A DNA stretch of 64,000 nt, taken from NCBI RefSeq assembly GCF_026151205.1, contig NW_026971774.1:21001-85000 (forward strand). Reading direction: 5' to 3'. A program made the translations under genes and the position numbers. Each line of letters opens with the position of its first letter. Position 1 is the first letter of the stretch. Under the pieces are notes generated by a model. The model had not been told where the DNA came from and made no database searches. It saw only the letters and a program-made list of their open reading frames with translations. This document shows positions 30,148-61,880 of the stretch, one piece after another. This DNA is from Bolinopsis microptera. Taxonomy: Eukaryota > Ctenophora > Tentaculata > Lobata > Bolinopsidae.

Positions 30148-30672
30148 ATGGAATTGGAATCACGAAAACACCAATGTCGGAAGTGCAACAAAAGTTACAA
30201 AACGTCCTCAAGCTTGGCTAGTCATCGTTACAGAGTGCATCCTTATGCGTCAAGTTTATCTAGCAGCAATTCGGAAGCGGAAAATATTGACGAACAAATA
30301 CAATGCAGTATACCATCGGAAAACCCTCTTATCCATGATCATGATCCAAATGGTATAGATAACCACGATGCGTCTATTGAGAATTTACAAACAGCCATTT
30401 ATCAGCTACGAGATTTCTACGAAGAAATGGAATGGACAATCAATAAACATGAAAAAGTGCTAAGACAGTTTCAAAAACTTATAGCTGATAACGATGAAAT
30501 AAATGAAACAGCATCTACTCAGCTGAACACAATCAAATTATCTAACAGGATTTCAGATTCGGATAACGACGTAGCAACCGACATGGATAGTGACTCAGTG
30601 TCAGTCTATGTCAACCCTACATCTAAAAGAAAGAATACTGATTCAGCTAGAAATAAGTTCTTTGGACTTTAG
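30148..30672 (+). CDS. Single C2H2 zinc-finger protein in right Polinton 1 terminal repeat
   Basis: All 174 residues are identical to the left-arm copy (16937-17461): one C2H2 finger near the N-terminus, an acidic Asn/Ser/Asp-rich middle, a coiled-coil-like helix and a basic tail (TSKRKNTDSARNKFFGL). Identity of both copies despite the broken core genes points to recent homogenisation between the arms or a young element. Function is unknown; a terminal-repeat-binding or transcription factor is plausible. Confidence 0.75.
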   Translation: MELESRKHQCRKCNKSYKTSSSLASHRYRVHPYASSLSSSNSEAENIDEQIQCSIPSENPLIHDHDPNGIDNHDASIENLQTAIYQLRDFYEEMEWTINKHEKVLRQFQKLIADNDEINETASTQLNTIKLSNRISDSDNDVATDMDSDSVSVYVNPTSKRKNTDSARNKFFGL

Positions 30673-31788
30673 TAAATATATTTTGAATTGAGTGTTTTAG
30701 GTAAGGTTTTTTCTTTTTGGAATGTTACAGGCCCACCCAGGGGTGCTGACTGACTAGACCCAACCAAGGATGCTGTGACTTTTAGAATAGGACCTCCCAT
30801 TTTCTGTTGTTGCTGTAAATCGCTTGTTATGCACCCAATATCAAGTCAATGGCAAATATATTTCATTAAAGTGGTATTAAACACGAATTTTATGACACCT
30901 TTGCCGTGACAAAAAATGAATGCCAAAAGTCATGTTTGACTTCGAAATATCACATTTCGCTGCATATATTCATTTTGACATGGGCAAGATCTGCTTTTAT
31001 CAAGTAGAGGTCAACTTTTTCAAGACCTGCTTTCTAAATTGAGACTTTGAGATTAGTATATTGCATGTATTATTTATTATTATATTGCATGTTAAATTTT
31101 ATCATTGCGAAGTGTTCTGTAGTTTTTTGAGAACGGGTTTACCTGAAAATCCAATCATTACATATCTTATCATATTAAATATATTTAAATAACGTTACAT
31201 TAATTTGATGAGTTTATTTGTTTTTGCAGAACACTGTATGATCATGTGTCATCACAGTATTAGAACTCGGTGAGAGTTAGATCTAGAGCTACAGAACGTT
31301 AGTATATCAAATACAGTGCAACTTTGCAGAATCTACTTAAGTAGGTTAATTCGATGCGTCAACACAGGTTAACTCAAAGTACATGGTGTTTTATCTCTAA
31401 AATCACGTGTCTCATTCACTACTCAACTTCAATGTAACAAATATAATCATCAACACGTAAACGATAACATTAATTTGATCACGTACAGAACTTCATCTAC
31501 ACTTGCAAATCACGTGACGTAAACAATAACATTAATAATTTGATAAGAAGAGTATCAAACACCCTTACAAGTCACGTGACAGACGTTATCCGTTCATATT
31601 GGCTAGCTAGTGTCACATTGTTCAATTACTAGTGTATGAATCAATTAACAATGCCAGCTAGTATCACATTATTCAATTACTAGTGTATGAATCAATTAAC
31701 TTTGTCAGCCAGTATCACATTGTTCAATTACTAGTGTATGAATCAATTAACACTGCCAGCTAGTATCACATTATTCAATTACTAGTGT

Positions 31789-31801
31789 ATGAATCAATTA
31801 A
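31789..31801. other. Target-site duplication ATGAATCAATTAA (left, PLE)
   Basis: The 13-bp direct repeat is repeated at 34252-34264 on the other side of the Penelope-like element. It comes from the subterminal repeat of the Polinton arm. Confidence 0.85.
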
Positions 31802-33965: not shown

Positions 33966-34251
33966 TAAGTTTAGTTATTTTTGTTGTGTAATTTATTTGC
34001 CTTCCGTAATTTTTGTCAGTATTTATGTTTTATTATGATTGGTGTCCCGTTAAATTTTATTTAAATTAAAATAAAAGATTTTTTTCCATACATACAAAAT
34101 TTTTTGGGATTCTTGTTTTTAAGTCTGTTTTGTTTCTACCTATATATGAGCCTAACTTATTTCTATTCAGGAGGTTCTCTCAAGATGATTTTTAAATTCG
34201 AAGATTTCAAGAGCCTAAACTGTGTATGATTCGCCTCTCCAAACAAATCAA
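31802..34251 (+). mobile_element. Penelope-like element inserted in Polinton 1 right arm
   Basis: The 2.45-kb insertion is delimited by a 13-bp duplication and by comparison with the left arm. It carries a single long RT-endonuclease frame and an AT-rich 3' region of about 290 bp. The 5' end starts inside coding sequence, so the copy is slightly 5' truncated. Confidence 0.92.
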
Positions 34252-34264
34252 ATGAATCAATTAA
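34252..34264. other. Target-site duplication ATGAATCAATTAA (right, PLE)
   Basis: Direct copy of 31789-31801. Polinton arm sequence resumes immediately after it. Confidence 0.85.
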
Positions 34265-34437
34265 CTTTGTCAGATAGTATCACATTATTCAATTACTAGT
34301 GTATGATTCAATTAACATTGCCTTAGTTCATTCAATTACGAGTGTATGATTCAATTAACATTGCCTTAGTTCATTCAATTACGATGATTCAATTAAATGT
34401 GCTCGCCTCTATACAGAACCCTTATCTATACCCTACT

Positions 34438-35754: not shown

Positions 35755-36046
35755 GTAAGTTTACCTCATCGACCATCGTGCTATTTAATAAGGCCACTAA
35801 TATTTAACAATATCCTCAAACTTCAATGAACGTGTCCTTAAATAAAATTTACCTCATCTGTCATTAGTTATTAGAAAACAGCTGAGGCATGAAAATATTT
35901 AACAAATTTTACCGTGCAAAATTTTAAACGTACAAGTGCGTACGTTTATTGCATTAATTGAATATAGGACAGCGGAATTATGAATTGATGTTAACATTAT
36001 AAACTATTCATGCAACACTCAGTAGTACAATACTTCACTCCATCAG
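35755..36046 (+). other. Putative intron
   Basis: It starts GTAAGT and ends ACTTCACTCCATCAG, 292 bases, phase 1. It is AT-rich and contains one copy of the 31-bp repeated element (35808-35838). Confidence 0.45.
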
Positions 36047-39000
36047 GAGGTAAGATAAAGTTGAGATCTGACGGTAGATGTGGTAGATGGTATCGCCTCC
36101 CTGATGGCAGTCCTGCTGAGTGTAACCCTGATGGGGAGAACCCGTGTTGTAACATGTGGGATGGTTTGTGTGGTAACTGCTCTTGTACTGACTGTGTAGA
36201 CTACAGAGTTATATATAAGGACTGGAGAGAATCACGAGGTAAGATAAAGTGGAGGTATGACGGTAGATGTGGTAGATGGTATCCCCTCCCTGATAGCAGT
36301 CCTGCTGAGTGTGACCCTGATGGGGAGAACCCGTGTTGTAATTTCTATGGACGGTGTGGTTATTCGGCTCCGTCTAATCCAAATGATAATTGTTATTGTC
36401 CTGAATGTGTAGACTACAGTATATTGAGCGAACTGAGAAAATCAGGAGAAAATTGTATGGTAGCAACAGTAAGCGGGTTTCTGAAAAATGTGTGTTTTGA
36501 TGAACAGAAGAAACGACAATATTTCAAGTGTGCCCACTCTGATGTGTACTTTAAACAGAAAAGTTGGAGCCAGCTTGATAGTGTTTCTACAGTCTGTGAG
36601 AAAGATCCCCACGTGTATCAGGCATGTGTGTTAAACACTATAATAACAAACACGGATGTGCTGTGTGGAGGCTTGTTTTGCAATAACAAATATATCAGAT
36701 GTGATAAGAACTGCAGTGTAGATAAGGATTGTACTAGTACTCCTCCTACCACTGCAGCGTACTCAACAACAGAGCTCTGTAATGATAAGTGTGACTCTGA
36801 CAAGTGTACAGATGAAAGTGATTGTAACGGGTATAGATACGGAGTTAACTGCACACTTCGTGGGAGGAACTGGTATGTTCCTGTAAAGTGGATATGTGAC
36901 GGAGACTCATGGTCCTGTGATAAAGGAGAGGATCAACAGGACTGTAATGTAACTGAAACTACCCCACACTCGTGTACACACTACTTCAGTAAAGTGGCCG
37001 GGTATTATAAGGAGATTAGAACAGTACCTATATTAAACTATACTAGGTGCTCAGTATTTGATATGACGAGTATTTATGATTATAAGAGAATATTACCATA
37101 CTGTCTGAACTATCTAGATCAGACTAACTGTTCTGATATAGAGCGAGTAGGGGGGTATTGTGAAATTAATGGGTATAACTCGAGTGTTTCTAAGTACATG
37201 TTGTGTTATGAACATGATGTAACGGCTAGATTACCAGTAAACTTATGTGATGATGACTTTCAAAACAGATGTATATCACCGTCTACTTCTTCTGATTGCA
37301 GAGTACACAAACACAGGATATGTGACGGAGTGTGGAATTGTCCTGATGGAAGTGACGAACTTCATGACATGTGTGAATACATGACGAAGGAATTTCAATG
37401 TGTCCGTAGGTTTAACTTCAATACAAAGTTCGGAATACCAGTTTCTTGGATAATGGACAATGTGGTGGATTGTATGGATGGAATGGATGAACAGGTTGAG
37501 CTTGGGGGATTAAGTTTCTGTGGCAACCACGATGACAAAACTTATCGTTTTAAAGAAAGTGATGAAACTTGCAGAAACGTCTATCTGTGTCAGAAAGGTG
37601 ATAAACCATACGTTCAATTCGAACAACTCTGTGATGGAGTGGAGACGTGTGGTGACAGTGCAGAGATTGAGGTTTGTAGGATCGCTAGAGATTTCCCAAC
37701 AATCAGTAAGACCGCTCTTTATCAAGAATTTAGACGAGATTTATGCGGTGACTCTAACTGTGAAGTGGGAGAATTCATACGACCCTGGATTGCAGATGTA
37801 TTCGGAGTAAAAAAGTCAGAGTTAATCGTTCCGACCTCTAAGGTTAATTGCAGCTATTTGTTTGGTGAATATTACCTGTTTCTCAGTTGCATGGAGCTAT
37901 GTCTAGATGCCTCATGTCCTCTAAATAAAAACAGAACATTGTTGTACAATTCATGTCCTGGACAATATCCTGATCGAGTATATACACTTGCCAACAACTC
38001 TTTTCTAACGTTTGTTGAGAAGTCAACGAAAGGCCAATATCACCAGGACTATTTTCAATGCAATAACAGTAGATGTGTGGAATACAAGCAAGTGTGTGAT
38101 CTCATAGACGACTGTGGGGACATGAGTGACGAGTTGAACTGTGCAAATCACATGATTTGTGAAGACACTTTGAACTCAACTAAACATCAGTTTATTTCCT
38201 TATCGCAGAGATGTGATGGCATATACGATTGCTTTGACCTTTCAGACGAATGCAATACCGGTTGTGAGAAAAGAATACTTGGAAACTGGATACTACAGGT
38301 ATTGTGCTGGGTCATGGGTTTACTAGCATTGATCTTCAACTCGTACACCGTATTCCGTGGGTTGACATCTCTTCATCATAGTAGGACTGGAAGTTTGTTA
38401 ACTAATAAGGCAATGGTCAGTCTTATCGGATCAGGGGATCTATTTATCGGATTATACTTAATTATGTTGTCTTTCTATGATAGTTTTGTACATGGGAACG
38501 GGTTTTGCAGAAATCAAGCCGAATGGTACACCGGAACAGCATGCTCCTTATTAGGGGTCATCAGCACAGTTGGATCACAAGTGTCCCTTTTCGCAATGAC
38601 AGCTTTAAGTATCATCAGAATGTATAAGCTTACTTTTAAGAAAATGAGTATTCCAGGCCCTGCAAACAGAACTACTACTATCAAACTCGCTTCCCTAGTC
38701 ACAGGAATTATCGCTGCTTCAATAGCTATAGCTGTTACACCATTGATACCTTCATTAGAGGAATATTTTGTACAAGGAATATACTATGATCCCATCTACA
38801 AAGTGTTCATAGGCTTCCCCAACAAAGAGAAACAAGTCAATGTTCTTCAAGCTCATTATAATACCACTAACATAACTACGGATTTAACCTGGAAACAAAT
38901 CGGTGATAAGGTGGACGGTATGTTCACTCAGCAACATGGACTTTTGATTAGACGTCCAGTTCATTTTTACGGTAACGACGGTGTTTGCTTATTCAAGTAC

Positions 39001-39621
39001 TTTGTTCGGAGTGACGATGCAAGAAGAATCAGACAATCTATAGAAAGTAGAGCAGACATAACTGATCATAAAGGAGATCCAGTAGTTTGGCTTATGCTTG
39101 GTGTGAACTTAGTTTGCTTCATCATCATCACTTTTTGCTACATAGTTATTAATTTACAAACAAGGATTTCTTCACGGAGATCAGGACAGCATCATACCCC
39201 AGAAAGAGTGAGGGACAATAGGGCTCTACAGAATAAAATTACTCTCATTGTTGCGACTGATTTCCTTTGCTGGGTACCATTTATTTTTATAAGCGGTTTG
39301 CATAATTTTGGCGTTTTTGATGCAACTAAATGGTATGTTACGTATGCGATGATAGTTCTTCCTCTTAATTCTGTTATCAACCCGCTGATATACGAAAAAA
39401 CGTTAACAGAGTTCCTAGGCAGAAAGTTGGGGGAGGTAAAAAGACTTATCAGGCTAAGTATTTCCGCAGTCGTATCTTCGATTACAAGATTCATTTCAAC
39501 GATGACTGAAGACATACAGAGCGGGAACAATGATCTGGATGTCATACAGATGGAACCTTTAAGAGTACAAGAGGATCGGGAACTTTCAGATCAAGTATTA
39601 GCTGAGACAGAAAATCTGTGA
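36047..39621 (+). CDS. LDLa-repeat rhodopsin-class GPCR (large terminal exon)
   Basis: The open frame runs about 1190 codons. The ATG at 36010 lacks a signal peptide, and a good acceptor lies at 36046, so the exon probably starts there. The N-terminus has two copies of a Cys-rich module (YDGRCGRWYPLPDSSPAEC, then DPDGENPCC, ending CVDY). A long extracellular region follows with LDL-receptor class A signatures: CDGVWNCPDGSDE (about 437 from 36010), CDLIDDCGDMSDE (695) and CDGIYDCFDLSDE (733). Seven membrane segments run from WILQVLCWVMGLLALIF (759) to NSVINPLIYEKTLTEF (about 1117-1132), the NPxxY position having NPLIY. ECL2 is long and holds GNDGVCLFKYF. This resembles LGR/GRL101-type receptors, but no leucine-rich repeats are seen. 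The ligand is unknown. The frame is intact and host-like. Confidence 0.88.
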
Positions 39622-47900: not shown

Positions 47901-50639
47901 AAAGCATAGCGGACCTCTTTAGATCTACAGTACCCTGGTGGACAGCATAGCTCACTAAAGCATAGCGGACCTCTTTAGATCTACAGTACCCTGGTGGACA
48001 GCATAGCTCACTAAAGCATAGCGGACCTCTTTAGTTCTACAGTACCCTGGTGGACAACATAGCTCACTAAAGCATAGCGGACCTCTTTAGATCTACAGTA
48101 CCCTGGTGGACAGCATAGCTCACTAAAGCATAGCGGACCTCTTTAGTTCTACAGTACCCTGGTGGACAGCATAGCTCACTAAAGCATAGCGGACCTCTTT
48201 AGATCTACAGTACCCTGGTGGACAGCATAGCTCACTAAAGCATAGCGGACCTCTTTAGTTCTACAGTACCCTGGTGGACAGCATAGCTCACTAAAGCATA
48301 GCGGACCTCTTTAGATCTACAGTACCCTGGTGGACAGCATAGCTCACTAAAGCATAGCGGACCTCTTTAGTTCTACAGTACCCTGGTGGACAGCATAGCT
48401 CACTAAAGCATAGCGGACCTCTTTAGGTCTACAGTACCCTGGTGGACAGCATAGCTCACTAAAGCATAGCGGACCTCTTTAGTTCTACAGTACCCTGGTG
48501 GACAGCATAGCTCACTAAAGCATAGCGGACCTCTTTAGTTCTACAGTACCCTGGTGGACAGCATAGCTCACTAAAGCATAGCGGACCTCTTTAGATCTAC
48601 AGTACCCTGGTGGACAGCATAGCTCACTAAAGCATAGCGGACCTCTTTAGTTCTACAGCACCCTGGTGGACAGCATAGCTCACTAAAGCATAGCGGACCT
48701 CTTAAGTTCTACAGCACCCTGGTGGACAGCATAGCTCACTAAAGCATAGCGGACCTCTTTAGTTCTACAGTACCCTGGTGGACAGCATAGCTCACTAAAG
48801 CATAGCGGACCTCTTTAGTTCTACAGTACCCTGGTGGACAGCATAGCTCACTAAAGCATAGCGGACCTCTTTAGTTCTACAGTACCCTGGTGGACAGCAT
48901 AGCTCACTAAAGCATAGCGGACCTCTTTAGTTCTACAGTACCCTGGTGGACAGCATAGCTCACTAAAGCATAGCGGACCTCTTAAGTTCTACAGTACCCT
49001 GGTGGACAGCATAGCTCACTAAAGCATAGCGGACCTCTTTAGTTCTACAGTACCCTGGTGGACAGCATAGCTCACTAAAGCATAGCGGACCTCTTTAGTT
49101 CTACAGTTCCCTGGTGGACAGCATAGCTCACTAAAGCATAGCGGACCTCTTTAGTTCTACAGTACCCTGGTGGACAGCATAGCTCACTAAAGCATAGCGG
49201 ACCTCTTTAGTTCTACAGTACCCTGGTGGACAGCATAGCTCACTAAAGCATAGCGGACCTTTTTAGTTCTACAGTACCCTGGTGGACAGCATAGCTCACT
49301 AAAGCATAGCGGACCTCTTTAGTTCTACAGTACCCTGGTGGACAGCATAGCTCACTAAAGCATAGCGGACCTCTTTAGTTCTACAGTACCCTGGTGGACA
49401 GCATAGCTTACTAAAGCATAGCGGACCTCTTTAGTTCTACAGTACCCTGGTGGACAGCATAGCTCACTAAAGCATAGCGGACCTCTTTAGGTCTACAGTA
49501 CCCTGGTGGACAGCATAGCTCACTAAAGCATAGCGGACCTCTTTAGTTCTACAGTACCCTGGTGGACAGCATAGCTCACTAAAGCATAGCGGACCTCTTT
49601 AGATCTACAGTACCCTGGTGGACAGCATAGCTCACTAAAGCATAGCGGACCTCTTTAGTTCTACAGTACCCTGGTGGACAGCATAGCTCACTAAAGCATA
49701 GCGGACCTTTTTAGTTCTACAGTACCCTGGTGGACAGCATAGCTCACTAAAGCATAGCGGACCTCTTTAGTTCTACAGTACCCTGGTGGACAGCATAGCT
49801 CACTAAAGCATAGCGGACCTCTTTAGTTCTACAGTACCCTGGTGGACAGCATAGCTCACTAAAGCATAGCGGACCTCTTTAGTTCTACAGTACCCTGGTG
49901 GACAGCATAGCTCACTAAAGCATAGCGGACCTCTTTAGATCTACAGTACCCTGGTGGACAGCATAGCTCACTAAAGCATAGCGGACCTCTTTAGTTCTAC
50001 AGTACCCTGGTGGACAGCATAGCTCACTAAAGCATAGCGGACCTCTTTAGTTCTACAGTACCCTGGTGGACAGCATAGCTCACTAAAGCATAGCGGACCT
50101 CTTTAGTTCTACAGTACCCTGGTGGACAGCATAGCTCACTAAAGCATAGCGGACCTCTTTAGTTCTACAGTACCCTGGTGGACAGCATAGCTCACTAAAG
50201 CATAGCGGACCTCTTTAGATCTACAGTACCCTGGTGGACAGCATAGCTCACTAAAGCATAGCGGACCTCTTTAGTTCTACAGTACCCTGGTGGACAGCAT
50301 AGCTCACTAAAGCATAACGGATCTCTTTAGTTCTACAGTACCCTGGTGGACAGCATAGCTCACTAAAGCATAGCGGACCTCTTTAGTTCTACAGTACCCT
50401 GGTGGACAGCATAGCTCACTAAAGCATAGCGGACCTCTTTAGTTCTACAGTACCCTGGTGGACAGCATAGCTCACTAAAGCATAGCGGACCTCTTTAGTT
50501 CTACAGTACCCTGGTGGACAGCAAAGCTCACTAAAGCATAGCGGACCTCTTTAGTTCTACAGTACCCTGGTGGACAGCATAGCTCACTAAAGCATAGCGG
50601 ACCTCTTTAGTTCTACAGTACCCTGGTGGACAGCATAGC
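44958..50639 (+). repeat. 57-bp satellite array, left part (~100 copies)
   Basis: The unit is TAGTTCTACAGTACCCTGGT, GGACAGCATAGCTCACTAAA, GCATAGCGGACCTCTTT. Copies are 95-100 percent alike, with recurring variants (AGATCT for AGTTCT, CTTAAG for CTTTAG, rare TTTTTAG) and one shortened unit near 47190. The unit has stops in every frame, so it is non-coding despite its length being a multiple of three. Confidence 0.97.
50634..50639. other. Target-site duplication CATAGC (left, Polinton 2)
   Basis: These are the last six satellite bases before the element. They are repeated at 61875-61880, where the satellite resumes in register. Confidence 0.93.
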
Positions 50640-51117
50640 AGTAGTATGTCAGGGATTTTTCAATAGCCATTTTGGGAAAAAAGTAGGTACAGGTGCTTGG
50701 AGTAAGCATATTACGTAATGTTACCGGCGGCGACCTTGTAATTAGTGTGATATCATGTTCCATGTGGACTCTATATTGGATGTAACTTGATTATTACGTC
50801 ATGTTCATTGCACACGGTACTATTGTGATCTTATCGTGTAACGATCTTACCAGATTAGAGTGGGTAAAAATGAGGTAATAATGTGCCACAAGCACGCAAT
50901 CCTTATCCTATAGATCACTTGAGTGACTCATTTAATCGTTTCTAGTGATTAATTTCCACAATCTGTCAATATAACTGACTGATGTTTTAAAAAAATTAAA
51001 ACAAATGATTCGTAACTGGTTAGAAAAATAAATGAAAATGAATAAGTTTTACGAATAGCATTAGCTGAATATTATTTACACGATACACATCCAAAAATAA
51101 GTTTTGACAGAATTAAA
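50640..51117. other. Non-coding terminal part of Polinton 2 left arm
   Basis: The first 250 bases match the right end (61625-61874) inverted. The rest (about 50890-51117) has no counterpart because of the right-arm deletion. No gene is seen. Confidence 0.6.
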
Positions 51118-51600
51118 TTAAGGTCTTAGTTTAAATCTATAAATATCAAATCGTACGCACACAATTCTTTCCACTGTCCATTTTGTTGATGGTCTGTGTA
51201 GTCGAGCATAGTCTAAGGCGTCTTGTTGCTCAATATCCTCGACAAATTGTCTATAATCAGATGGAGTTTCTAATAATCGAGGGAGTGTGAACAGCATCGT
51301 GTTGTTTGACGGATGAAAAAACTTTAGTTCATCTGTAGTCCTGTCCTTGAGAATAAATCCAAACGCCACATTAAATTTGAACTTCTCGTTGTATTTTGCA
51401 ACAACTTCTTCAGCTTTTCTCAAGATCGCACTATTATCAGTGGTGATTATAGGAAAATGGTAAACATCTTTCAATCGACCCTGTCTCACACTCGTTTTAA
51501 TTGTTTTCCAACTCCTTTTGTAAATATCCTGATATTCTCCAGGAATTTGTGCAAGTGTGGAACGGTCCATAACTAATAATATTGACAGCAGAGGATTCAT
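51118..51600 (-). CDS. Polinton 2 161-aa protein of unknown function, full copy
   Basis: The Met at 51600 (MNPLLSILLVMDRSTLAQI) is preferred to 51612 because the right-arm copy starts there. The protein is mixed alpha/beta in look, with basic KRSWKTIKTSVRQGRLKD, then VVAKYNEKFKFNVAFGFILK and a C-terminal WTVERIVCVRFDIYRFKLRP. No known family was recognised. A TATA-like ACTATAAAAGC lies about 30 bases upstream (51630-51640). It sits between the terminus and the C2H2 gene, transcribed outward. The right copy is truncated. Confidence 0.6.
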   Translation of the reverse strand: MNPLLSILLVMDRSTLAQIPGEYQDIYKRSWKTIKTSVRQGRLKDVYHFPIITTDNSAILRKAEEVVAKYNEKFKFNVAFGFILKDRTTDELKFFHPSNNTMLFTLPRLLETPSDYRQFVEDIEQQDALDYARLHRPSTKWTVERIVCVRFDIYRFKLRP

Positions 51601-51667
51601 TTCGAAAACCACTTCTCCCAGATGCTTTTATAGTCTTTCATCCGGAGGTCAATTTTATTCATTAATT

Positions 51668-52714
51668 TCAGTCACTTTGATTCTCAGATTGTGAAATGGA
51701 ATGATTATCTAGCGTGCTTTCTGATTCTGACTGATCAATTTCACTAATATTAGAATCCGATGAGTACTGTTCTTCTTCCTTGTCTGATGTCGTTTCAGAT
51801 CCTGACTGATCAGTCATAGAGTTATTGTCATCAATATCCGATTTCTCTTCTTCATTTACAGACTTTATTTCCTGTTTCTCAGAATCAGATGGCTCAAATA
51901 ATTCATCAAGATCGGTTTTCATCCGGTCAAACATGTTCACGAGATGATTAAAATTTTCGTGTATCATTGCTTTTGCCGTTAACTTCGAAGCATTAGATAT
52001 TAAATTTAGCAGCTGGATTTCCTCCTCACTCAGTTTACTTAGATCTATCGTTTTCAGTATTAACTTGAGGACATAACGGAGTTTAGGAATATCTGCAGTC
52101 ACTTCGTCTATGTCATTTTCAACAAACGAGTTCCTTACTTCAATCATACCATCGATAAGATCTTCGGCTGCCAGTTCGTTCAAATCAACATCAACCTCTT
52201 GACCAACGTTTTGATCGACAGTATTATCCATAGTATCTTGAATATCTCTTATATCATTTTTGTTTGATTCTACCGTAAGTTTGAGTATTCTGAGTTCATT
52301 TGATGGAAGAATGCTGTCCTCATATCTAACAAAGTGAGTTTTATTACTCACACTGTCATTACTTTTCATCTCCTCACTCAAGTTCCTGACAAGTCTGTCT
52401 AATTCATCGACAGTCGATTGCAGAATATTTAGGTCTGCTTTCATTAGTACAATGTCCGTAACTTTATCCTGTAAATAATCGTATCCAGGACCATCTGTTG
52501 TGAATTTGTTGGCTGCTGGAAGCTTATTCTTAGTAGCGTAATCAGTACCATACTCGTAGTCGAGACTCACGGAATCATTGGGTAAACTGTAGACCTTATC
52601 TATATTTTTGCTATCTTTCTGTGCCCTGTGATACGAGTAGCGGTGGGTACGAAGACTTTTAGAATTTTTGTACTGCCTTCCACAACTATCACACGAGTAT
52701 GATTTACTACTCAT
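51668..52714 (-). CDS. Polinton 2 C2H2 zinc-finger protein, left arm
   Basis: About 348 residues. One C2H2 finger is at the N-terminus, CDSCGRQYKNSKSLRTHRYSYH (C-x2-C-x12-H-x4-H). Long helical and likely coiled-coil regions follow (LMKADLNILQSTVDELDRLV, LNELAAEDLIDGMIEVRNSF), then an acidic Ser/Glu/Asp-rich tail. The architecture (one N-terminal finger, coiled coil, acidic tract) is the same as in the Polinton 1 terminal-repeat gene. The right-arm copy (60249-61301) differs at only about four residues. A TATA-like GGTATATAAGG is upstream near 52765-52775. It is probably a DNA-binding protein of the element. Confidence 0.75.
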   Translation of the reverse strand: MSSKSYSCDSCGRQYKNSKSLRTHRYSYHRAQKDSKNIDKVYSLPNDSVSLDYEYGTDYATKNKLPAANKFTTDGPGYDYLQDKVTDIVLMKADLNILQSTVDELDRLVRNLSEEMKSNDSVSNKTHFVRYEDSILPSNELRILKLTVESNKNDIRDIQDTMDNTVDQNVGQEVDVDLNELAAEDLIDGMIEVRNSFVENDIDEVTADIPKLRYVLKLILKTIDLSKLSEEEIQLLNLISNASKLTAKAMIHENFNHLVNMFDRMKTDLDELFEPSDSEKQEIKSVNEEEKSDIDDNNSMTDQSGSETTSDKEEEQYSSDSNISEIDQSESESTLDNHSISQSENQSD

Positions 52715-52849
52715 TTTCAAGCTAGATGAAGAACTATTGAATTCATATCAGCTGTCAAAAGTCCCTTATATACCTCTCAGATGAGAGTGACATTAATTGA
52801 AAGAATTAGTCGCATCGTTATTATAATACAAACGACAATGAAAGTTGTA

Positions 52850-53480
52850 TTATCAATAATGACGGGTATTAATGACGGGTATTGTTAATAATGACGGGTA
52901 TTGTTAATAATGACGGGTATTATTAATAATGACGGGTTTAGTGACGGGTATTGTTAATAATGACAGGTATTATTATTATTAATGACGGGTATTATTATTA
53001 ATGACGGGTATTATTATTATTAATGACGGGTATTATTATTATTAATGACGGTTATTATTATTATTAATGACGGGTATTATTATTAATGACGGGTATTATT
53101 ATTATTATTATTAATGACGGGTATTATTATTATTAATGACGGGTATTATCATTAATGACGGGTATTATTATTATTAATAATGACGGGTATTATTATTATT
53201 AATAATGACGGGTATTATTATTAATGACGGGTATTATTATTAATGACGGCCGTCATTAATTATAATAATACCCGTCATTAATAATAATAATACCCGTCAT
53301 TAATAATAATAATACCCGTCATTAATAATAATACCCGTCATTAATAATAATAATACCCGTCATTAATAATAATAATAATAATACACGTCATTAATAATAA
53401 TACCCGTCATTAATAATAATAATACCCGTCATTAATAATAATACCCGTCATTAATAATAATAATACCCGTCATTAATAAT
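52850..53480. repeat. (TAATGACGGGTATTAT)n repeat that switches strand at 53247
   Basis: Up to 53241 the repeat reads AATGACGGGTATTATTATT. After GACGGCCGTC it reads as the reverse complement (AATAATACCCGTCATTAAT). The switch is the centre of the Polinton 2 palindrome. Confidence 0.93.
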
Positions 53481-53815
53481 TTTTTTTATTGAAATCTTTC
53501 AAATCAGTCAATTACATACAAGTTTACACAATGAATTAGTTAAATATAATATTGTCCTCTAAGCATGGATTGTCAAAGTTGAAATTGTCTCAGGACAAAA
53601 TGTATGTAACCAAAGGACCTGAGGGTCACCAAAACACAGATATTGAGTGCAAATGCAGCTCCTGCACAAGCATGGGCCCTTATAAAATTGTAATAAGTTA
53701 CTTTAAACAAAATCACACACCCATTCAATCAATTCATAAAATATTGTGCTGTGAGATGAAATTGAGAAATATGTGAATGCAGACAGCAAGAATAGATAAT
53801 CTTGAATAAACTATT
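53481..53815 (-). other. LINE E 3' untranslated region
   Basis: Non-coding, AT-rich, ending AATAAAAAAA at the insertion point. The plus-strand open frame at 53552-53776 has no protein-like features. Confidence 0.6.
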
Positions 53816-56800
53816 TTACGGATTTGTTTCTATTGAATAGTCAAGTTCAGAGTCCGAATCCACCGGGATAATTTTCCCCCACATGTAAGTGGAAAGTTTA
53901 CTTTTAAAATCAGTGATACTCTCTATCTCACGGATATCTAGAGGAATGTGATTCCACTTAGTGTGGGTCCTATAGAAGAAATTCTTGGCAAAAGCGTTGG
54001 AGCTTGCTCGAGGTGAGATAGAGCTTACAAAACATAGAGAGTCCATGTGACTATTTCTGAGCCTTGAGTGGCCTTGAAATGGTTGCAAATATGAGGGTAA
54101 AGTGACAGGTATATGTTGCTTCACAATTTTAAAGAAGAAGATGAGATCCAAGAAGTCAAAGCGGTCTTCAATCGGCATAATCTTCAGCTGTCTGCATTTT
54201 TGAATGTATGTGGATGGTGGATAACTCATATACTCCTCGTGAAGAATCCACTTAATAGCACGCTTTTGGAGGCCCTCCAGCTTGCTTATCTGGGATTTTG
54301 TGACTGGTCTCCATATAACCGAGCAATGCTCAAATAGGCTCCTCACTAAAGTGAGATACAGTACTCTACGACGATTTACGTCTTGGACAAAATAACAATT
54401 TCTTCTCGCCATGCCTAATTTTTGGTTTGCCTTAGAAAGGACTTTGGAGCACTGATCTTTCCAATCGAGATTTGATGTCACAATTACACCCAGATCCTTT
54501 TCATGATCAACATAGTCAAGTGTGATTCTTCCCATGGAGTATACAAAGTTAAAGAGTGGTAGGACACTAAGGAGGGAAACTGTTTCGGATATCCTTCCTG
54601 CGACGGTGAGGACCTTACATTTGTCGGGATGAAATCTCATTTTATTAGAAAGTGACCAGTCATGGAGATAATCAATGTCCTTCTGCAGTCGCAGGATATC
54701 AGACTCCGAAACAATCTTACGCCAAATTTTAGTATCATCGGCATACAGTGACAGTTGTGTGCCTGGTGAAATCCCCACTGATATATCATCAATGAACATA
54801 ATGAACAGCAATGGTCCCAAAATTGACCCTTGAGGTACACCAGACTGGGCGTTTCTCATAGAAGAAAACTTGCCACTTATCAAGACCTGTTGTTGCCTGT
54901 CTCTTAGATAATCAGTGATGAATTTCAGTAGCCTCCCATCAATACCAAATTTGCTCTTTAGCTTAAATAATATAAGATCATGGTTAACCGAGTCAAATGC
55001 TTTGGCAAAATCAAAGTAGACTACATCTGTTCTCATATTTTCATTCAGTGAGAGCGCTAGGCTGTCGCACAGTCCTACAAGATTAGTTGCACAAGATCTC
55101 TCAGCTCGGAAACCATGCTGTTTGTCATTGATCATGCCATTAGTAAGTGCCAATAACTCATCTCTTATTATGCGTTCAAGAACTTTTGTGATTAAGCATG
55201 TAAGAGAAATTGGCCTATAATTTGAAACCTCATGTTTATCCCCTTTCTTGAATATTGGTACAATGTGCCCCAGTTTCCACTCCCTTGGTAGTGTCCCAAT
55301 GTTGTAGCATGAATGAAAAAGTATTGATATAGGGTATGCGAGCCCAACCGCACAGTTTTTCAAAAGTTTCCCATGGATACCATCAGGTCCATAAGCTTTA
55401 TTAGCATTAATATTGGAAAGGATTTTGCGAACCCTTCTGTGGTCAAATTCAATATCAAAGCGCCAATCATTAGAGTAATCTATATCTATGTCATAAGTTG
55501 ATGCCTCAGAGAACTGCTCAAAGAAAAAGTCATTAAATAGGTTGGCCTGGTCTTCAGGGCAGTTGCGGACAGTGCCTTTGTGGCTTACAAACTCAGGGAT
55601 CCGCTGACTAGCTGTCTTCGATTTGACATAGGACCAAAATTTTTTTGTTATTAAAGCACTATCATCAGATTCATTTAATGTTTCCCTCATTTTTTGAGCA
55701 ACCACATTTTTGAAATTTTTCCTAGCAAGGGAGAATGCAATTTCAGCTCTATCACTTTTATGCCTTTCTTTATGTAATCTCACTTTCTTACGCCATGCAT
55801 CATAACACTCCGAGTCAAACCATGGATCTTGGCCATCAGTCTTGACAGAGCATTTTTTAACAAATTTATCTGTGACATTAAAAAGTTTGTCCTTAAATTT
55901 TTTCCATCCAATTTCAGGTTCTGTGCCATTGAGCAATGCATCCCAATTCGTGTGTCGGAGTTCATGGTTTAGCCTCTCCCAGTTCACAGTCTTAAAGTTA
56001 TAGCACATACGCCTGACTGGCTTCTTCCTACCAACTTTAACGTTGATCTTAAAATTGATGGGGAAGTGGTCAGACTTGCAAGCACTATCTCTCTCACCTA
56101 CCATTAGGTCATTAATATTTGACACAGAGTTTGTGAGCAATAGGTCAAGTGTTTTGCCTTTGCAGTGGGTAGGTGTTAACACACATTGTTGAAGGCCTAG
56201 ATCAACAAAAGATTCAACAAAAGATTGCTCAATAGGACAGGAGCTGGCCAGGGTAGACCAGGAAACTCCGGTCAGGTTAAAATCTCCTAGTATGAAGACT
56301 TTACTCAGTCCTCTTCTTCTGAGAAGAGTTTTCAAAGACTCAACAATTTTTTCATGATTTGCGGAGCCCAGTGTACCAACACGATAACATGTGCATACAA
56401 CAAACTTAATTCCAGTGGAGGTCTTAAATTCCACAGCAAGAATTTCTGCACCATACTTGAGACGAACTTCCTTTGAAGTTAGATCAAGGTCTGCTCTCAC
56501 TGCAATCATGACCCCTCCACCATTCCTCCTAAACCGGGTTGGATTAGAAGGATCTGGTGGATGAGTTTTCTTAGATCTATCAGAGCGAAATATCTTATAT
56601 CTGTCAGGGTGCAGAAATTCACTATCAGCAATAGAACTCTTAAACCAGGTTTCGTTAAGTATTGCAATATCTATCTTAGCCTCATTAAGATAAGTCGACA
56701 CTTCAAGACATTTAGTGGTATCAATCATTGGATGGGCATTGTTCAGTTCACCAAAAGGGATGAGACCTTGAACATTCTGAAAGTAAACATTCAATTTATT

Positions 56801-57346
56801 AGCATTCCCAACTCTAACACCTATGGGAGACGGCCCTGGGTTTACAATTCCAGGGTTTACTAAAACTATCAAAAAACCATTCATCAAAAACAACCAAATT
56901 ATGCATCCCGTGAGTGTATTGCCGGTTCTACCAGTAAATATGCAATTTAAGTTCTTATGGATTGAAATCTGGCAAAATCTATATAAACCATCGAAACTGT
57001 AATTATTCCTCAGATAATACATATTTGCTAAATATAAAAAGAAATAAACTGTAAAGCATCGGCACAAGTTAGGAACTGGGTATGTTGGTACAAAGGCTCG
57101 GCAATCATAAGTGACCCTAGAAAAAGCCAACCCACTTACCCCGACATATGTGATAGTGATTAGCGAAAAGTGACATATGAATATAACATAAAAAATATAA
57201 AATAATAAGCGAGAATCAATGCAGCTGTCTAAATAATCAAAAATACTACCTGTACCACGTCTACGGTTCTGATGTTTGATGGATTTTGCAAAAGAATTTC
57301 CACTAAACACTCCAACTCTAAATCTGTATGTTACTAAATCGATCAT
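53816..57346 (-). CDS. LINE E ORF2: endonuclease-reverse transcriptase (CR1-like)
   Basis: An intact 1176-residue frame. The first ~175 residues are hydrophobic, with several membrane-like segments, and end in VNPGIVNPGPSPIG. The APE endonuclease follows: YFQNVQGL, AILNETWF, NGGGVMIAVR, FILGDFNLTGVSW (about 350), CKSDHFPINF. The RT has GPDGIHGKLLKN, NYRPISLT, YFDFAKAFDSVNH (about 778), SGVPQGSILGPLLF and the active site LYADDTKIW (about 867), with a thumb region RSLFEHCSVIW. It would nick target DNA and copy the LINE RNA. All catalytic motifs look complete, so it may be active. Confidence 0.93.
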   Translation of the reverse strand: MIDLVTYRFRVGVFSGNSFAKSIKHQNRRRGTGSIFDYLDSCIDSRLLFYIFYVIFICHFSLITITYVGVSGLAFSRVTYDCRAFVPTYPVPNLCRCFTVYFFLYLANMYYLRNNYSFDGLYRFCQISIHKNLNCIFTGRTGNTLTGCIIWLFLMNGFLIVLVNPGIVNPGPSPIGVRVGNANKLNVYFQNVQGLIPFGELNNAHPMIDTTKCLEVSTYLNEAKIDIAILNETWFKSSIADSEFLHPDRYKIFRSDRSKKTHPPDPSNPTRFRRNGGGVMIAVRADLDLTSKEVRLKYGAEILAVEFKTSTGIKFVVCTCYRVGTLGSANHEKIVESLKTLLRRRGLSKVFILGDFNLTGVSWSTLASSCPIEQSFVESFVDLGLQQCVLTPTHCKGKTLDLLLTNSVSNINDLMVGERDSACKSDHFPINFKINVKVGRKKPVRRMCYNFKTVNWERLNHELRHTNWDALLNGTEPEIGWKKFKDKLFNVTDKFVKKCSVKTDGQDPWFDSECYDAWRKKVRLHKERHKSDRAEIAFSLARKNFKNVVAQKMRETLNESDDSALITKKFWSYVKSKTASQRIPEFVSHKGTVRNCPEDQANLFNDFFFEQFSEASTYDIDIDYSNDWRFDIEFDHRRVRKILSNINANKAYGPDGIHGKLLKNCAVGLAYPISILFHSCYNIGTLPREWKLGHIVPIFKKGDKHEVSNYRPISLTCLITKVLERIIRDELLALTNGMINDKQHGFRAERSCATNLVGLCDSLALSLNENMRTDVVYFDFAKAFDSVNHDLILFKLKSKFGIDGRLLKFITDYLRDRQQQVLISGKFSSMRNAQSGVPQGSILGPLLFIMFIDDISVGISPGTQLSLYADDTKIWRKIVSESDILRLQKDIDYLHDWSLSNKMRFHPDKCKVLTVAGRISETVSLLSVLPLFNFVYSMGRITLDYVDHEKDLGVIVTSNLDWKDQCSKVLSKANQKLGMARRNCYFVQDVNRRRVLYLTLVRSLFEHCSVIWRPVTKSQISKLEGLQKRAIKWILHEEYMSYPPSTYIQKCRQLKIMPIEDRFDFLDLIFFFKIVKQHIPVTLPSYLQPFQGHSRLRNSHMDSLCFVSSISPRASSNAFAKNFFYRTHTKWNHIPLDIREIESITDFKSKLSTYMWGKIIPVDSDSELDYSIETNP

Positions 57347-57428
57347 GGTGTTTTACAGGTGAGTATACTTGCCAGACTACAACTGCATATCATTAGCTTA
57401 ACAAGGTTCAGAAGACAGCACAAAAGAA

Positions 57429-58802
57429 CTACTGATAGATATAAGGATTAAAATATCTACTGTGGATGGCACGAATATAAAATCTGGCCAACACACCCAT
57501 ACCTTTCTGAGGATTGGGGTGAATGCCTTTGTTCTCAAATAAGGGATCAAATCTCTTAACAGGCTCACTTAGAGCTCTCTTAAACTTTGTAAAGGGATAA
57601 AACACATCCATGAAAAAGAACCTCCTAAATACACACTCATTGTATAAAATCCTATTAAAATCCATTACCCTCTTGTTAGTTAATTTATCGTTATCATTCT
57701 GTAAAGGTAATGGCAATAGAGATTGAACATATACCTTACAGTTGGGGAATAATAGGCCTATCTTACCAAAAAGTTGCTTTACTGGTCCCCTCAAAATACC
57801 AATTTTATCCCCCACACGCCTAATATCGTTTGTGCCTACGCTGATCAGAAGCTTCTCAACGTGGACATCAGGATGTGCCGTGCAGTAGTCCTCCAACTGT
57901 TTCTGGACTTTGTCCATTTTTGCTCCGCCTTCTGCAACATTTACGACTGTGACTTTCCCTTTTCCCAGCTTTGCGGAGTCCAATCTTTGAGCATAAGAGT
58001 CTCCAGCAACCAACGTGACTCTTTGCGCAGGTACTTGGGCTTCGGTGCCAGAAGCTGGTGTACTAGTCTCTGTGCTGATATTCTGAGAGCTAACTTGGCC
58101 ACCAGATTTCACAATAGCTCGAAATGACAGGGAGTATCTTACTTGCTCCGATTTCTTTGGAGGCTCTCCCTTTGTGGCCGGCTCTGCTCGCACAGCATGC
58201 CTCAGATTCTGCTGTGTCCCAGGCCGCATTACAACAAGACTGTTGTTCTTCATCCTTATCGTCTTGACACAATTAGGTTTCCCAGTTGTGCCCTCGTAAA
58301 ACTCAAGCGTCCGTTCACATCCCAGTGAGAAAGAGCAAATCGATTTCTCCTGGTCCATTAGTTTCTCACCGTCATTGTGTATTGAAGTACTCGCTTGGTT
58401 GTTTCCATACTTGATGACCAGACATGAGTCCAGAGGTCCAGTTATCTCCGTACTCGAGTTTACAAGACTCAGGAGTCTTTTGATATTAGGGAAACCACTG
58501 ATATCCTGTGGTGGGTGCACTGGATTTGTGTCAGTGTAAATATAGGGTGCATCCTGTGAGCACAACCAAGCTGTTGTTGCCTTGTGTCTTCCCTCGGTGT
58601 TCAGTTTCTGCAGGGACTCACATTCAACCCATACCGCATCACGGAGAACCTCATCCTCGCAGAAGTCCTCTATATGTAACACAAAATTGTCCACCTTTCC
58701 CTCACGCTTTGGCAGCTCGTTTTGAACAGAGTTAAGGATATGACGTAGATCCTCAACTGAGGCAGCTTTGACATAGTCGAAAATCTCTTGAAGGTTTATC
58801 AT
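57429..58802 (-). CDS. LINE E ORF1: AlkB-like dioxygenase fused to SGNH hydrolase
   Basis: The frame opens at 58874. The Met at 58802 (MINLQEIFDYVKAASVEDL) is the likelier start. Residues here are numbered from 58874. At 150-255 lies an AlkB-type 2-oxoglutarate/Fe(II) dioxygenase core: SIHNDGE (iron ligands H166, D168), NLRHAV (H226) and the 2-oxoglutarate signature RYSLSFR (R246, R252). At 286-470 is an SGNH/GDSL hydrolase: VAGDSYAQRL (nucleophile Ser), SVGTND and GIHPN (catalytic His452; the usual DxxH Asp is Lys here). SGNH domains are known in ORF1 of CR1/L2-like LINEs. The AlkB fusion may act in nucleic-acid dealkylation, protecting the LINE RNA. That role is inference. Confidence 0.85.
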   Translation of the reverse strand: MINLQEIFDYVKAASVEDLRHILNSVQNELPKREGKVDNFVLHIEDFCEDEVLRDAVWVECESLQKLNTEGRHKATTAWLCSQDAPYIYTDTNPVHPPQDISGFPNIKRLLSLVNSSTEITGPLDSCLVIKYGNNQASTSIHNDGEKLMDQEKSICSFSLGCERTLEFYEGTTGKPNCVKTIRMKNNSLVVMRPGTQQNLRHAVRAEPATKGEPPKKSEQVRYSLSFRAIVKSGGQVSSQNISTETSTPASGTEAQVPAQRVTLVAGDSYAQRLDSAKLGKGKVTVVNVAEGGAKMDKVQKQLEDYCTAHPDVHVEKLLISVGTNDIRRVGDKIGILRGPVKQLFGKIGLLFPNCKVYVQSLLPLPLQNDNDKLTNKRVMDFNRILYNECVFRRFFFMDVFYPFTKFKRALSEPVKRFDPLFENKGIHPNPQKGMGVLARFYIRAIHSRYFNPYIYQ

Positions 58803-59262
58803 TGTTGTCAGAGATTGTCGAGTCTGGCAGCAAAGTTTGCCAGGGAACCATCCGTAACACCTCAGAGTAGGCAACCTCCCACAACACTAAACACGACCTG
58901 GAAGGAAAATGGCACGAGAAAATGTGTAATGAAACTGCTGGTCGGGAGTAAAGTTAAATTTGCCAGTGAAAATATAGCTAGAGTAAGGATAAGAGGGGCA
59001 ATACCAGAGATGTAAAAATTCACATTCAAAATAAGCTATCAATGAGAAAGAAGTAAAAGAGAAACTTACATCGTGTTTAAGGTGTTGTTGCCCAGTGCAA
59101 GCACTGGGCGAGAGGAGCCTAACTCAGGAGGCGAACTTCAGGAACCCCAGCGCACCCGCATACCAGGAGATCGGCTGTACTTCCTAGCCCGTCATGCCAT
59201 TGTACATGCCTAAATAAATGTATTTAATTGTAGTTGTGAAAATAGTTTAAAACTGAAATAAT
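58803..59262 (-). other. LINE E 5' leader
   Basis: Non-coding, with a hairpin GCCCAGTGCAAGCACTGGGC (59090-59110) and a GC-richer segment at 59105-59205. The last ~58 bases (59205-59262) recur at 59389-59446 within a duplicated segment of about 184 bp. Confidence 0.55.
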
Positions 59263-60115
59263 AATACCCGTCATTAATAATAATAATACCCGTCATTAAT
59301 AATAATAATACCCGTCATTAATAATAATACCCGTCATTAATAATAATAATACCCGTCATTAATAATAATACCCGTCATTAATAAATTAGTACATGCCTAA
59401 ATAAATGTATTTAATTGTAGTTGTGAAAATAGTTTAAAACTGAAATAATAATACCCGTCATTAATAATAATAATACCCGTCATTAATAATAATAATACCC
59501 GTCATTAATAATAATACCCGTCATTAATAATAATAATACCCGTCATTAATAATAATACCCGTCATTAATAATAATACCCGTCATTAATAATAATAATACC
59601 CGTCATTAATAATAATACCCGTCATTAATAATAATACCCGTCATTAATAATAATAATACCCGTCATTAATAATAATACCCGTCATTGATAATAATACCCG
59701 TCATTAATAATAATGATACCCGTCATTAATAATAATACCCGTCATTAATAATAATACCCGTCATTATTAATAATAATAATACCCGTCATTATTAATAATA
59801 ATAATACCCGTCATTAATAATAATACCCGTCATTAATAATAATAATACCCGTCATTAATAATAATAATAATAATACCCGTCATTAATAATAATACCCGTC
59901 ATTAATAATAATAATAACCGTCATTAATAATAATAATACCCGTCATTAATAATAATAATACCCGTCATTAATAATAATACCCGTCATTAATAATAATAAT
60001 ACCTGTCATTATTAACAATACCCGTCACTAAACCCGTCATTATTAATAATACCCGTCATTATTAACAATACCCGTCATTATTAACAATACCCGTCATTAA
60101 TACCCGTCATTATTG
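59205..60115. repeat. (AATAATACCCGTCATT)n repeat of Polinton 2 right arm
   Basis: This is the inverted counterpart of 52850-53247, longer by array expansion. Its first ~370 bases are two copies of a 184-bp segment that includes TACATGCCTAAATAAATG and the repeat, so a duplication occurred after the LINE inserted. Confidence 0.85.
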
Positions 60116-60254
60116 ATAATACAACTTTCATTGTCGTTTGTATTATAATAACGATGCGACTAATTCTTTCAATTAATGTCACTCTCATCTGAGAGGTATA
60201 TAAGGGACTTTTGACAGCTGATATGAATTCAATAGTTCTTCATCTAGCTTGAAA

Positions 60255-61301
60255 ATGAGTAGTAAATCATACTCGTGTGATAGTTGTGGAAGGCAGTACA
60301 AAAATTCTAAAAGTCTTCGTACCCACCGCTACTCGTATCACAGGGCACAGAAAGATAGCAAAAATATAGATAAGGTCTACAGTTTACCCAATGATTCCGT
60401 GAGTCTCGACTACGAGTATGGTACTGATTACGCTACTAAGAATAAGCTTCCAGCAGCCAACAAATTCACAACAGATGGTCCTGGATACGATTATTTACAG
60501 GATAAAGTTACGGACATTGTACTAATGAAAGCAGACCTAAATATTCTGCAATCGACTGTCGATGAATTAGACAGACTTGTCAGGAACTTGAGTGAGGAGA
60601 TGAAAAGTAATGACAGTGTGAGTAATAAAACTCACTTTGTTAGATATGAGGACAGCATTCTTCCATCAAATGAACTCAGAATACTCAAACTTACGGTAGA
60701 ATCAAACAAAAATGATATAAGAGATATTCAAGATACTATGGATAATACTGTCGATCAAAACGTTGGTCAAGAGGTTGATGTTGATTTGAACGAACTGGCA
60801 GCCGAAGATCTTATCGATGGTATGATTGAAATAAGGAACTCGTTTGTTGAAAATGACATAGACGAAGTGACTGCAGATATTCCTAAACTCCGTTATGTCC
60901 TCAAGTTAATACTGAAAACGATAGATCTAAGTAAACTGAGTGAGGAGGAAATCCAGCTGCTAAATGAAATATCTAATGCTTTGAAGTTAACGGCAAAAGC
61001 AATGATACACGAAAATTTTAATCATCTCGTGAACATGTTTGACCGGATGAAAACCGATCTTGATGAATTATTTGAGCCATCTGATTCTGAGAAACAGGAA
61101 ATAAAGTCTGTAAATGAAGAAGAGAAATCGGATATTGATGACAATAACTCTATGACTGATCAGTCAGGATCTGAAACGGCATCAGACAAGGAAGAAGAAC
61201 AGTACTCATCGGATTCTAATATTAGTGAAATTGATCAGTCAGAATCAGAAAGCACGCTAGATAATCATTCCATTTCACAATCTGAGAATCAAAGTGACTG
61301 A
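60255..61301 (+). CDS. Polinton 2 C2H2 zinc-finger protein, right arm
   Basis: Mirror copy of 51668-52714, with differences only at about four positions (for example MIEV to MIEI, NLISNAS to NEISNAL, ETTS to ETAS). It is intact, with the N-terminal finger, coiled-coil region and acidic tail. TATA-like GGTATATAAGG lies at about 60196-60206. The alternative Met is at 60249. The two copies have begun to drift, unlike the identical pair of Polinton 1. Confidence 0.75.
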   Translation: MSSKSYSCDSCGRQYKNSKSLRTHRYSYHRAQKDSKNIDKVYSLPNDSVSLDYEYGTDYATKNKLPAANKFTTDGPGYDYLQDKVTDIVLMKADLNILQSTVDELDRLVRNLSEEMKSNDSVSNKTHFVRYEDSILPSNELRILKLTVESNKNDIRDIQDTMDNTVDQNVGQEVDVDLNELAAEDLIDGMIEIRNSFVENDIDEVTADIPKLRYVLKLILKTIDLSKLSEEEIQLLNEISNALKLTAKAMIHENFNHLVNMFDRMKTDLDELFEPSDSEKQEIKSVNEEEKSDIDDNNSMTDQSGSETASDKEEEQYSSDSNISEIDQSESESTLDNHSISQSENQSD

Positions 61302-61368
61302 AATTAATGAATAAAATTGACCTCCGGATAAAAGACTATAAAAGCATCTGGGAGAACTGGTTTTCGAA

Positions 61369-61659
61369 ATGAATCCTCTGCTGTCAATATTATTAGTTAT
61401 GGACCGTTCCACACTTGCACAAATTCCTGGAGAATATCAGGATATTTACAAAAGGAGTTGGAAAACAATTAAAACGAGTGTGAGACAGGGTCGATTGAAA
61501 GATGTTTACCATTTTCCTATAATCACCACTGATAATAGTGCGATCTTGAGAAAAGCTGAAGAAGTTGTTGCAAAATACAACGAGAAGTTCAAAGTTAATG
61601 TGGCGTTTGGATTTATTCTCAATTGTGGCACATTATTACCTCATTTTTACCCACTTTAA
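61369..61659 (+). pseudogene. Polinton 2 161-aa protein, truncated right copy
   Basis: It matches 51118-51600 for about 87 residues, to NVAFGFIL, then passes through a deletion junction and stops after NCGTLLPHFYPL. About 460 bases present in the left arm (about 50890-51350) are missing here. The junction has the short microhomology CCACA/GAGAATAAATCC context expected of end joining. The promoter ACTATAAAAGC (61338-61348) is intact. Confidence 0.8.
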
Positions 61660-61874
61660 TCTGGTAAGATCGTTACACGATAAAATCACAATAGTACCGT
61701 GTGCAATGAACATGACGTAATAATCAAGTTACATCCAATAAAGAGTCCACATGGAACATGATATCACACTAATTACAAGGTCGCCGCCGGTAACATTACG
61801 TAATATGCTTACTCCAAGCACCTGTACCTACTTTTTTCCCAAAATGGCTATTGAAAAATCCCTGACATACTACT

Positions 61875-61880
61875 CATAGC
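61875..61880. other. Target-site duplication CATAGC (right, Polinton 2)
   Basis: First six bases of the resumed satellite; direct copy of 50634-50639. Confidence 0.93.

Follow-up and report, generated by a model that had tools for sequence, protein, structure and literature searches.

Structure of the palindromic element

The stretch analyzed here comprises 64,000 nucleotides of the genome of the ctenophore Bolinopsis microptera (NCBI RefSeq assembly GCF_026151205.1, contig NW_026971774.1, positions 21,001 to 85,000 of the forward strand). It is referred to as the window, and all coordinates without a locus prefix are window positions. The window contains a palindromic insertion with Polinton-like ends, which spans positions 50640 to 61874 and has the termini AGTAG on the left and CTACT on the right. 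A 6-bp target-site duplication, CATAGC, is found directly outside both termini (50634 to 50639 and 61875 to 61880). The insertion host is a 56-bp satellite whose unit itself contains CATAGC twice. Thus, the evidence for the duplication is the satellite phase, which is restored once one CATAGC copy is removed, and not the six letters alone.

The left arm (50640 to 53247, plus strand) begins with approximately 0.3 kb of terminal repeat that is common to both ends of full-length relatives. Inward of this repeat is an intact gene, here called p164 (51118 to 51570, minus strand), for a stand-alone terminal-protein-like domain of 150 residues counted from a conserved Met; the mechanically called open reading frame (ORF) begins at a GTG at 51612. 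The gene for a C2H2 protein follows (51668 to 52714, minus strand), and then a tandem array of units of the TAATGACGGGTATTATTAT type (52847 to 53247). At the axis, at about 53247/53248, GACGG meets CCGTC with no spacer. The right arm opens with the inverted array, divided into a first portion (53250 to 53480) and a remainder (59257 to 60122), and continues with the second C2H2 gene (60255 to 61301, plus strand), p164 homology (61357 to 61662, plus strand) and the right terminal repeat (61623 to 61874), which ends in CTACT. The C2H2 frame is open from its ATG for 348 aa in both arms. The inverted matches (51347-53266 against 59703-61622, and 50640-50891 against 61623-61874) are both 99% identical, and complementarity that runs for kilobases at this level excludes a chance origin.

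A preliminary description of this element, made from the letters alone, had reported the ends, the exact duplication and the inverted arms with a C2H2 gene in each, and all of these hold. Its direct meeting of the arms at 53247 also holds for the axis itself, but the right arm has to be amended in two respects. The right arm lacks a counterpart of left-arm positions 50892-51346, a loss of 455 bp that truncates the right p164, and its array is interrupted by a later insertion of approximately 5.8 kb, a non-LTR (long terminal repeat) retrotransposon of the LINE (long interspersed nuclear element) kind, with approximate limits ~53481 to 59256 (minus strand). A 180-bp tandem duplication lies in the array remainder at the retrotransposon border.

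Full-length relatives and the origin of the arms

Matches were sought in the genome assembly (264.65 Mb, 232 contigs), the loci were labelled from L009 onward, and 29 regions were examined for ends and duplications. Full-length relatives with the same ends were found at L011/L012 (11 kb), L016/L017 (12.9 kb) and L022-L024 (24 kb). These elements are collinear over about 5.5 and 4.5 kb, with other insertions in between. Exact duplications flank L011/L012 (AATACC) and L022/L024 (TATAGA). The left end of L016/L017 (L016:315, L017:6179) lacks one AGT of the terminal AGTAGT while its duplication, CAGCCT, is intact; slippage at the terminal repeat during protein priming might account for the lost triplet.

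The terminal repeats of the full-length elements align over only 311 bp (L011/L012), 272 bp (L016/L017) and 308 bp (L022-L024), and p164, the C2H2 gene and the array each occur once, at one end. The arms of the palindrome are therefore not old terminal repeats. One end of the element has been replaced by an inverted copy of the other end. The earlier suggestion of two terminal repeats joined head to head fails for this reason, since everything in the arm beyond the terminal 272-311 bp belongs to one end only. The window arms are the right end of a full-length element (terminal repeat, p164, C2H2 gene and array), present twice in inverted orientation, with PolB lost. The source is an integrated element of approximately 10 kb with a PolB-type polymerase of the protein-primed sort, a C2H2 gene and p164.

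The remaining gene of the full-length elements is a split PolB-type gene with pieces of 706, 164 and 182 aa. The pieces align in order to residues 29-680, 837-944 and 1171-1238 of a 1246-aa protein at L020, although the alignment is weak (E values from 6e-4 to 5e-6, identity 18-32%). Part of the L020 protein scored 25.1 bits against Pfam DNA_pol_B_2 (PF03175), for which the cut-off is 25.8; the whole L020 protein gave no listing, and none of the full-length PolB pieces had a direct Pfam match above the cut-off. The 706-aa piece has 64 relatives, two of which carry PF03175, one of these from Branchiostoma. PolB relatives occur in amphioxus, acorn worm and coral. Judged by the places of exon matches, PolB is absent from the palindromes, and no exon of it remains in those gene-bearing palindromes whose arms come from the right end.

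In L011/L012, frames of at least 110 aa comprise the PolB pieces, p164, the C2H2 frame and what looks by eye like a fragment of a retrotransposon. ATPase, protease and capsid genes were not found among the full-length frames examined, no structure-based capsid search having been made, and the Pfam scan of full-length pieces yielded no transposase that passed the cut-off. In addition, a tblastn search with the integrase from the window found no match in L009-L037, though a very divergent integrase could escape such a search. The preliminary description had looked to full-length relatives with integrase or capsid genes and had taken their absence as a refutation. This refutation applies in part: relatives sharing these ends exist and carry a PolB-type gene, but an integrase or capsid gene was not found in them.

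Palindromic elements across the genome

The terminal 251 bp of the window element had 43 matches in the genome, 30 of them in facing pairs. Further palindromic copies with different 6-bp duplications, as had been anticipated, were identified among these, and across the class the Polinton-like ends and 6-bp duplications recur. The termini are AGTAGTAT or AGTAGTGT, inverted, with the AG start seen in Polinton/Maverick elements. Counting two families, there are 14 palindromic or inverted-arm insertion sites, at which the duplication is exact in nine, matches at 5/6 positions in three, is mismatched in one (L028) and was not assessed in one (L030), whose right end lies beyond the examined region. 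Exact duplications in the first family are CATAGC (window), ATCGTC (L009), AGTAGC (L013), TACAGA (L015), AACGTC (L019), GCCGAT (L025) and CGTAGT (L029). Those at 5/6 include GGTATA/CGTATA (L026a) and TATACC/TATACG (L026b/L027). No facing partner was found for the single ends L010, L018, L031 and L034.

In L013, L019, L028, L029 and L030 the element matches its own reverse complement over its whole or near-whole length. L028-L030 have the terminal repeat and the array, and gave no p164 or C2H2 match. The arms of L025 are the other, PolB-side end, and its interior is rearranged. L020/L021 is the L019 insertion within a duplicated, inverted chromosomal segment, with flanks identical at 99.4% over 348 bp and 99.7% over 299 bp, and was therefore counted once. 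It was considered as an undeleted version of L019, which proved wrong: it is the same insertion carrying another inserted PolB element. That nested element (L020:798-7601 and L021:1-1401; ends AGTAGTATGTAATATGG; duplication TCTTAG) has 2.2-kb inverted ends containing the 3' half of its PolB and a 3.8-kb unique middle, and would be a partial form of the same turn-back event.

The two arms of one element are more alike than arms of different elements. Identity within elements is 99.4% in the window element, 100.0% in L009, 99.8% in L013 and L015, and 99.6% in L019, and identity between different elements is 91-99% (one arm, L026a_L, left out). The arms of L026a are 82.5% identical in the arm alignment, with 99.6% over the outer 479 bp and a poorer match further in, and because of its poor inner matches L026a is left out of the statement that arms are 99.4-100% identical. 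At two different sites, L029 and L030 share 95% identity along 2.3 kb, which indicates that elements already palindromic also spread as such.

Genome-wide, p164 has 58 matches, including a family of facing pairs whose p164 is 55-57% identical. In this second family, L042 and L043 are palindromes from end to end, whereas the inverted arms of L044 measure 2.6 kb and match at 99.7%. Their ends start AGTAGTGTATGAGGGATTTTT, and their duplications are GATATC (exact), GGCGGC (exact) and GACGTA/TACGTA. Each arm of L043 has p164 and a C2H2 protein, their gene orientation being unlike that of the first family, and L042 has the array type of the first family. Within-element arm identity is 99.92% (L042), 100.00% (L043) and 99.84% (L044), and the arms of L042 and L043 are 99.2-99.3% alike. 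The end pattern AGTAGTRTATGANGNATTTTT, with one mismatch allowed, matched at 35 places, 26 of which form facing pairs; the reversed control gave 2. More facing ends related to this family lie 4-6 kb apart (C4:10998778/11002999, C8:8567246/8573222, C21:62658/68650 and C11:13687287/13693326) and are possibly further coreless elements. Also, two facing copies of a PolB exon lie 6 kb apart (C4:10350717, minus; C4:10356802, plus), a possible palindrome built from a PolB-containing end.

The p164 protein

By sequence, p164 is a stand-alone relative of the domain of protein-primed PolB (pPolB) that the literature identifies as the terminal protein. The window p164 matched residues 63-207 of the PolB exon at 29% identity (E value 3e-16), and the p164 query matched L011 at 2e-18. 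The fold of p164 resembles the little finger of Y-family polymerases, as expected of the pPolB D1 domain. In an alignment of 24 proteins (the window copy and 23 chosen from 120 listed), Pro141 is present in 24 of 24, as is Ser or Thr at both 142 and 143. These positions fall between a helix (132-138) and a strand (145-159), as in the D1 domain, where a Ser, Thr or Tyr beside Pro or Gly lies in the loop that separates helix 2 from the last strand. The best match of p164 among viral structures is an adintovirus C2H2 protein. Pfam returned nothing for p164 and PHROGs nothing clear, and no relatives of p164 or the C2H2 protein were found in IMG/VR viral contigs. p164 may serve as, or help, the terminal protein.

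Formation of the palindromes

The window element is probably an inverted-duplication derivative that arose by snap-back during protein-primed replication and was then integrated by functions supplied in trans. In this proposal, replication of the full-length element would proceed on a linear molecule whose ends are protein-primed. Close to the array, the 3' end of a growing strand would fold back, anneal to its own strand and copy back to the terminus from which it originated, and the product would be a linear molecule with two identical functional ends. PolB would be supplied in trans by full-length copies and integrase by Polintons of the same genome. Within the hairpin, each arm would serve as the template for copying or repairing the other, which would keep the two almost identical.

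The snap-back origin proposed earlier gains support from a single-copy loop and from the tree. The L009 palindrome has its axis past the array, within the final codons of PolB. On its left side, native sequence continues for another 24 nt beyond L009:4566, and the sequence turns back after a single-copy loop of 29 nt (4567-4595). L012, the nearest full-length relative of L009, has a CCTT...AAGG inverted repeat at the junction; the pair is no longer exact in L009. A loop of this kind would be expected if a folded 3' end had primed its own copying. In an unrooted tree of 17 arms and ends (rows L026a_L and L018 dropped), the two arms of palindromes pair, the window element and L009 lie beside full-length L012 (support 90/100), and L013 and L019/L021 lie elsewhere. 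Palindromes are thus interleaved with full-length ends, and a single clade of all palindromes was rejected for the first family (log-likelihood 76.8 lower, approximately unbiased (AU) test p 0.00045). The array was also considered as a fold-back hotspot of short palindromes. This idea was unsupported, with 3.5 palindromic 8-mers per kb in the array, 7.3 in shuffles and 6.8 elsewhere; palindromic 12-mers occur at 2.4 per kb in the array versus 0.7 in shuffles and 0.5 elsewhere, at few sites. Shared centre motifs of L013 and L028-L030 were not used to count origins, since the motif of L029 and L030 is part of their arms.

Some caveats apply. The window element, L013 and L029 are flanked by tandem repeats, so the duplications there weigh less. 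The starred branches of the tree alone do not require several origins, and recombination between elements could affect the AU test. The point about the starred branches also counts for an improbable alternative in which palindromes arose in the distant past, in one or a few events, and have since only amplified as giant elements resembling miniature inverted-repeat transposable elements (MITEs), with hairpin repair or conversion keeping the arms alike. The 95% identity of L029 and L030 and the resemblance between L042 and L043 arms would fit such amplification, but the axes differ among the window element, L009 and L019, and the interleaving and the rejected clade argue against it. An assembly or fold-back read artefact can be given hardly any credence. 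Artefacts in the form of inverted repeats with identical arms are known, yet a fold-back read would mirror the flanks, and the flanks of the nine elements tested are unmirrored except for one 9-bp match (L013), those of the window element matching in direct orientation. Exact target duplications, a retrotransposon in one arm only and the presence of one insertion twice with its flanks (L019 and L020/L021), one copy carrying a later insertion, also speak against an artefact.

Of the chromosomal explanations, fusion of two opposite insertions by deletion, or an inverted chromosomal duplication, is very improbable. Partnerless single ends do exist, but fused neighbours would have different outer duplications, and the same 6-bp duplication lies on both outer sides at nine of the 14 sites; moreover, the arms resemble each other more than they resemble other elements. 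Repair of the kind proposed for Galileo (PMC3573991) deserves more weight, although we consider it unlikely. After a break or excision, one terminal repeat would be rebuilt from the other, the tract would run inward and the remainder would be deleted. That source describes copies of two terminal repeats with tandem-repeat turnover within them, array length differs between the arms here as well, and a Polinton elsewhere in the window has inverted ends of approximately 2.2 kb. However, the gene-bearing palindromes with right-end arms have lost the whole PolB side, yet their outer terminus and duplication are exact, and the single-copy loop inside PolB in L009 is a fold-back signature. Snap-back during replication is preferred. 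A more ambitious view is offered only tentatively: the palindromes would be self-sustaining satellite replicons, linear hairpin or palindrome molecules with replication origins at both ends and their own terminal-protein-like p164 and C2H2 protein, which borrow only PolB from full-length relatives and integrase from Polintons and which form afresh in different families.

Polintons and other features of the window

The genome has 39 integrase matches, 13 of which are stop-free open frames of 356-363 aa, and none of the 39 lies inside the end pairs of the palindrome families. Supply in trans is accordingly an inference. The window itself contains a Polinton (15635-34437) with AGTAGGG ends, a duplication of TCCGTG/ACCGTG (5/6), an rve integrase match at 19954-20352 with a continuation at 20369-20959, and a 174-aa C2H2 gene in each inverted end. 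Its right end carries, by eye, a Penelope-like insertion. Three more end pairs of this family, 16-24 kb apart, each enclose an integrase place. This is the only Polinton family whose ends were examined, and it has just the AGTAG motif in common with the palindromes. Elsewhere, p164 and integrase lie 2.9-3.1 kb apart at C13:2750630, C9:6178364, C1:5566514 and C10:15687696, and L045-L047 lie inside such elements.

The right-arm retrotransposon has an ORF for endonuclease and reverse transcriptase (53816-57346, minus strand) and, upstream of it, a 481-aa ORF (57429-58874, minus strand) that encodes a 2OG-Fe(II)/AlkB-type oxygenase domain and, after it, a GDSL esterase domain. Esterase ORF1s are already known; a limited literature search of top-ranked results did not find an AlkB-esterase fusion. 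In addition, a single-exon frame of 1203 aa (36010-39621, plus strand) encodes, by eye, repeats like those of the low-density lipoprotein receptor and then a seven-helix receptor.

Comparison with known systems

In animals, to our knowledge, the genes of Polinton-like elements are the main grounds for assuming that they replicate by protein priming. Snap-back products are to be expected from copying of this sort, and integrated palindromes that carry exact duplications would thus be a record of it. They also show how a large self-synthesising element can lose its core and shrink to a small satellite that retains a stand-alone terminal-protein-like gene next to each terminus, and they form a natural system for separating requirements in cis from those in trans.

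The full-length relatives resemble Polinton/Maverick and adintovirus-like elements in their AG...CT inverted ends, 6-bp duplications and PolB-type polymerase. They differ in that integrase, ATPase, protease and capsid genes were not found in those examined, and the palindromes also lack PolB. MITEs are likewise non-autonomous, with identical inverted ends and many copies, but the palindromes are 2-8 kb and larger, near-complete palindromes, several with intact genes. The preliminary description knew of no widely described class of this kind, and the literature search listed none for Polinton-like elements, but hairpin linear plasmids, snap-back genomes of adeno-associated virus (AAV) and repeat-only Galileo copies are precedents.

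Palindromic defective genomes are known in adenovirus, and the F1 and F2 derivatives of yeast pGKL are hairpin or inverted-dimer forms of protein-primed linear plasmids. A deletion derivative of the kalilo plasmid forms hairpin and duplex DNA, according to a title cited in PMC11071308. In these plasmid derivatives too, one end of a protein-primed linear replicon has been turned into a palindrome or hairpin. However, they are free plasmids of mitochondria or cytoplasm, whereas the palindromes here are many and are integrated in an animal genome with target duplications. The AAV snap-back defective genomes (PMC8235507) are similarly end-derived and keep a few genes, but they belong to a parvovirus with rolling-hairpin replication and are packaged in particles, whereas the present elements are integrated. 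Galileo, according to PMC3573991, has repeat-only copies and repeats extended by inner sequence, and Galileo/Foldback elements share with the palindromes two long inverted repeats that extend inward and have tandem repeats inside. Galileo/Foldback elements have a P-superfamily transposase and 7-bp duplications, compared with 6 bp here. We know of no polymerase or terminal-protein-like gene in them.

A literature search at the level of titles and abstracts, with subscription papers mostly outside its reach, found no palindromic or snap-back Polinton derivative. The kind itself has precedents; what we rate as new is a recurrent, integrated snap-back class with a terminal-protein-like gene in an animal genome.

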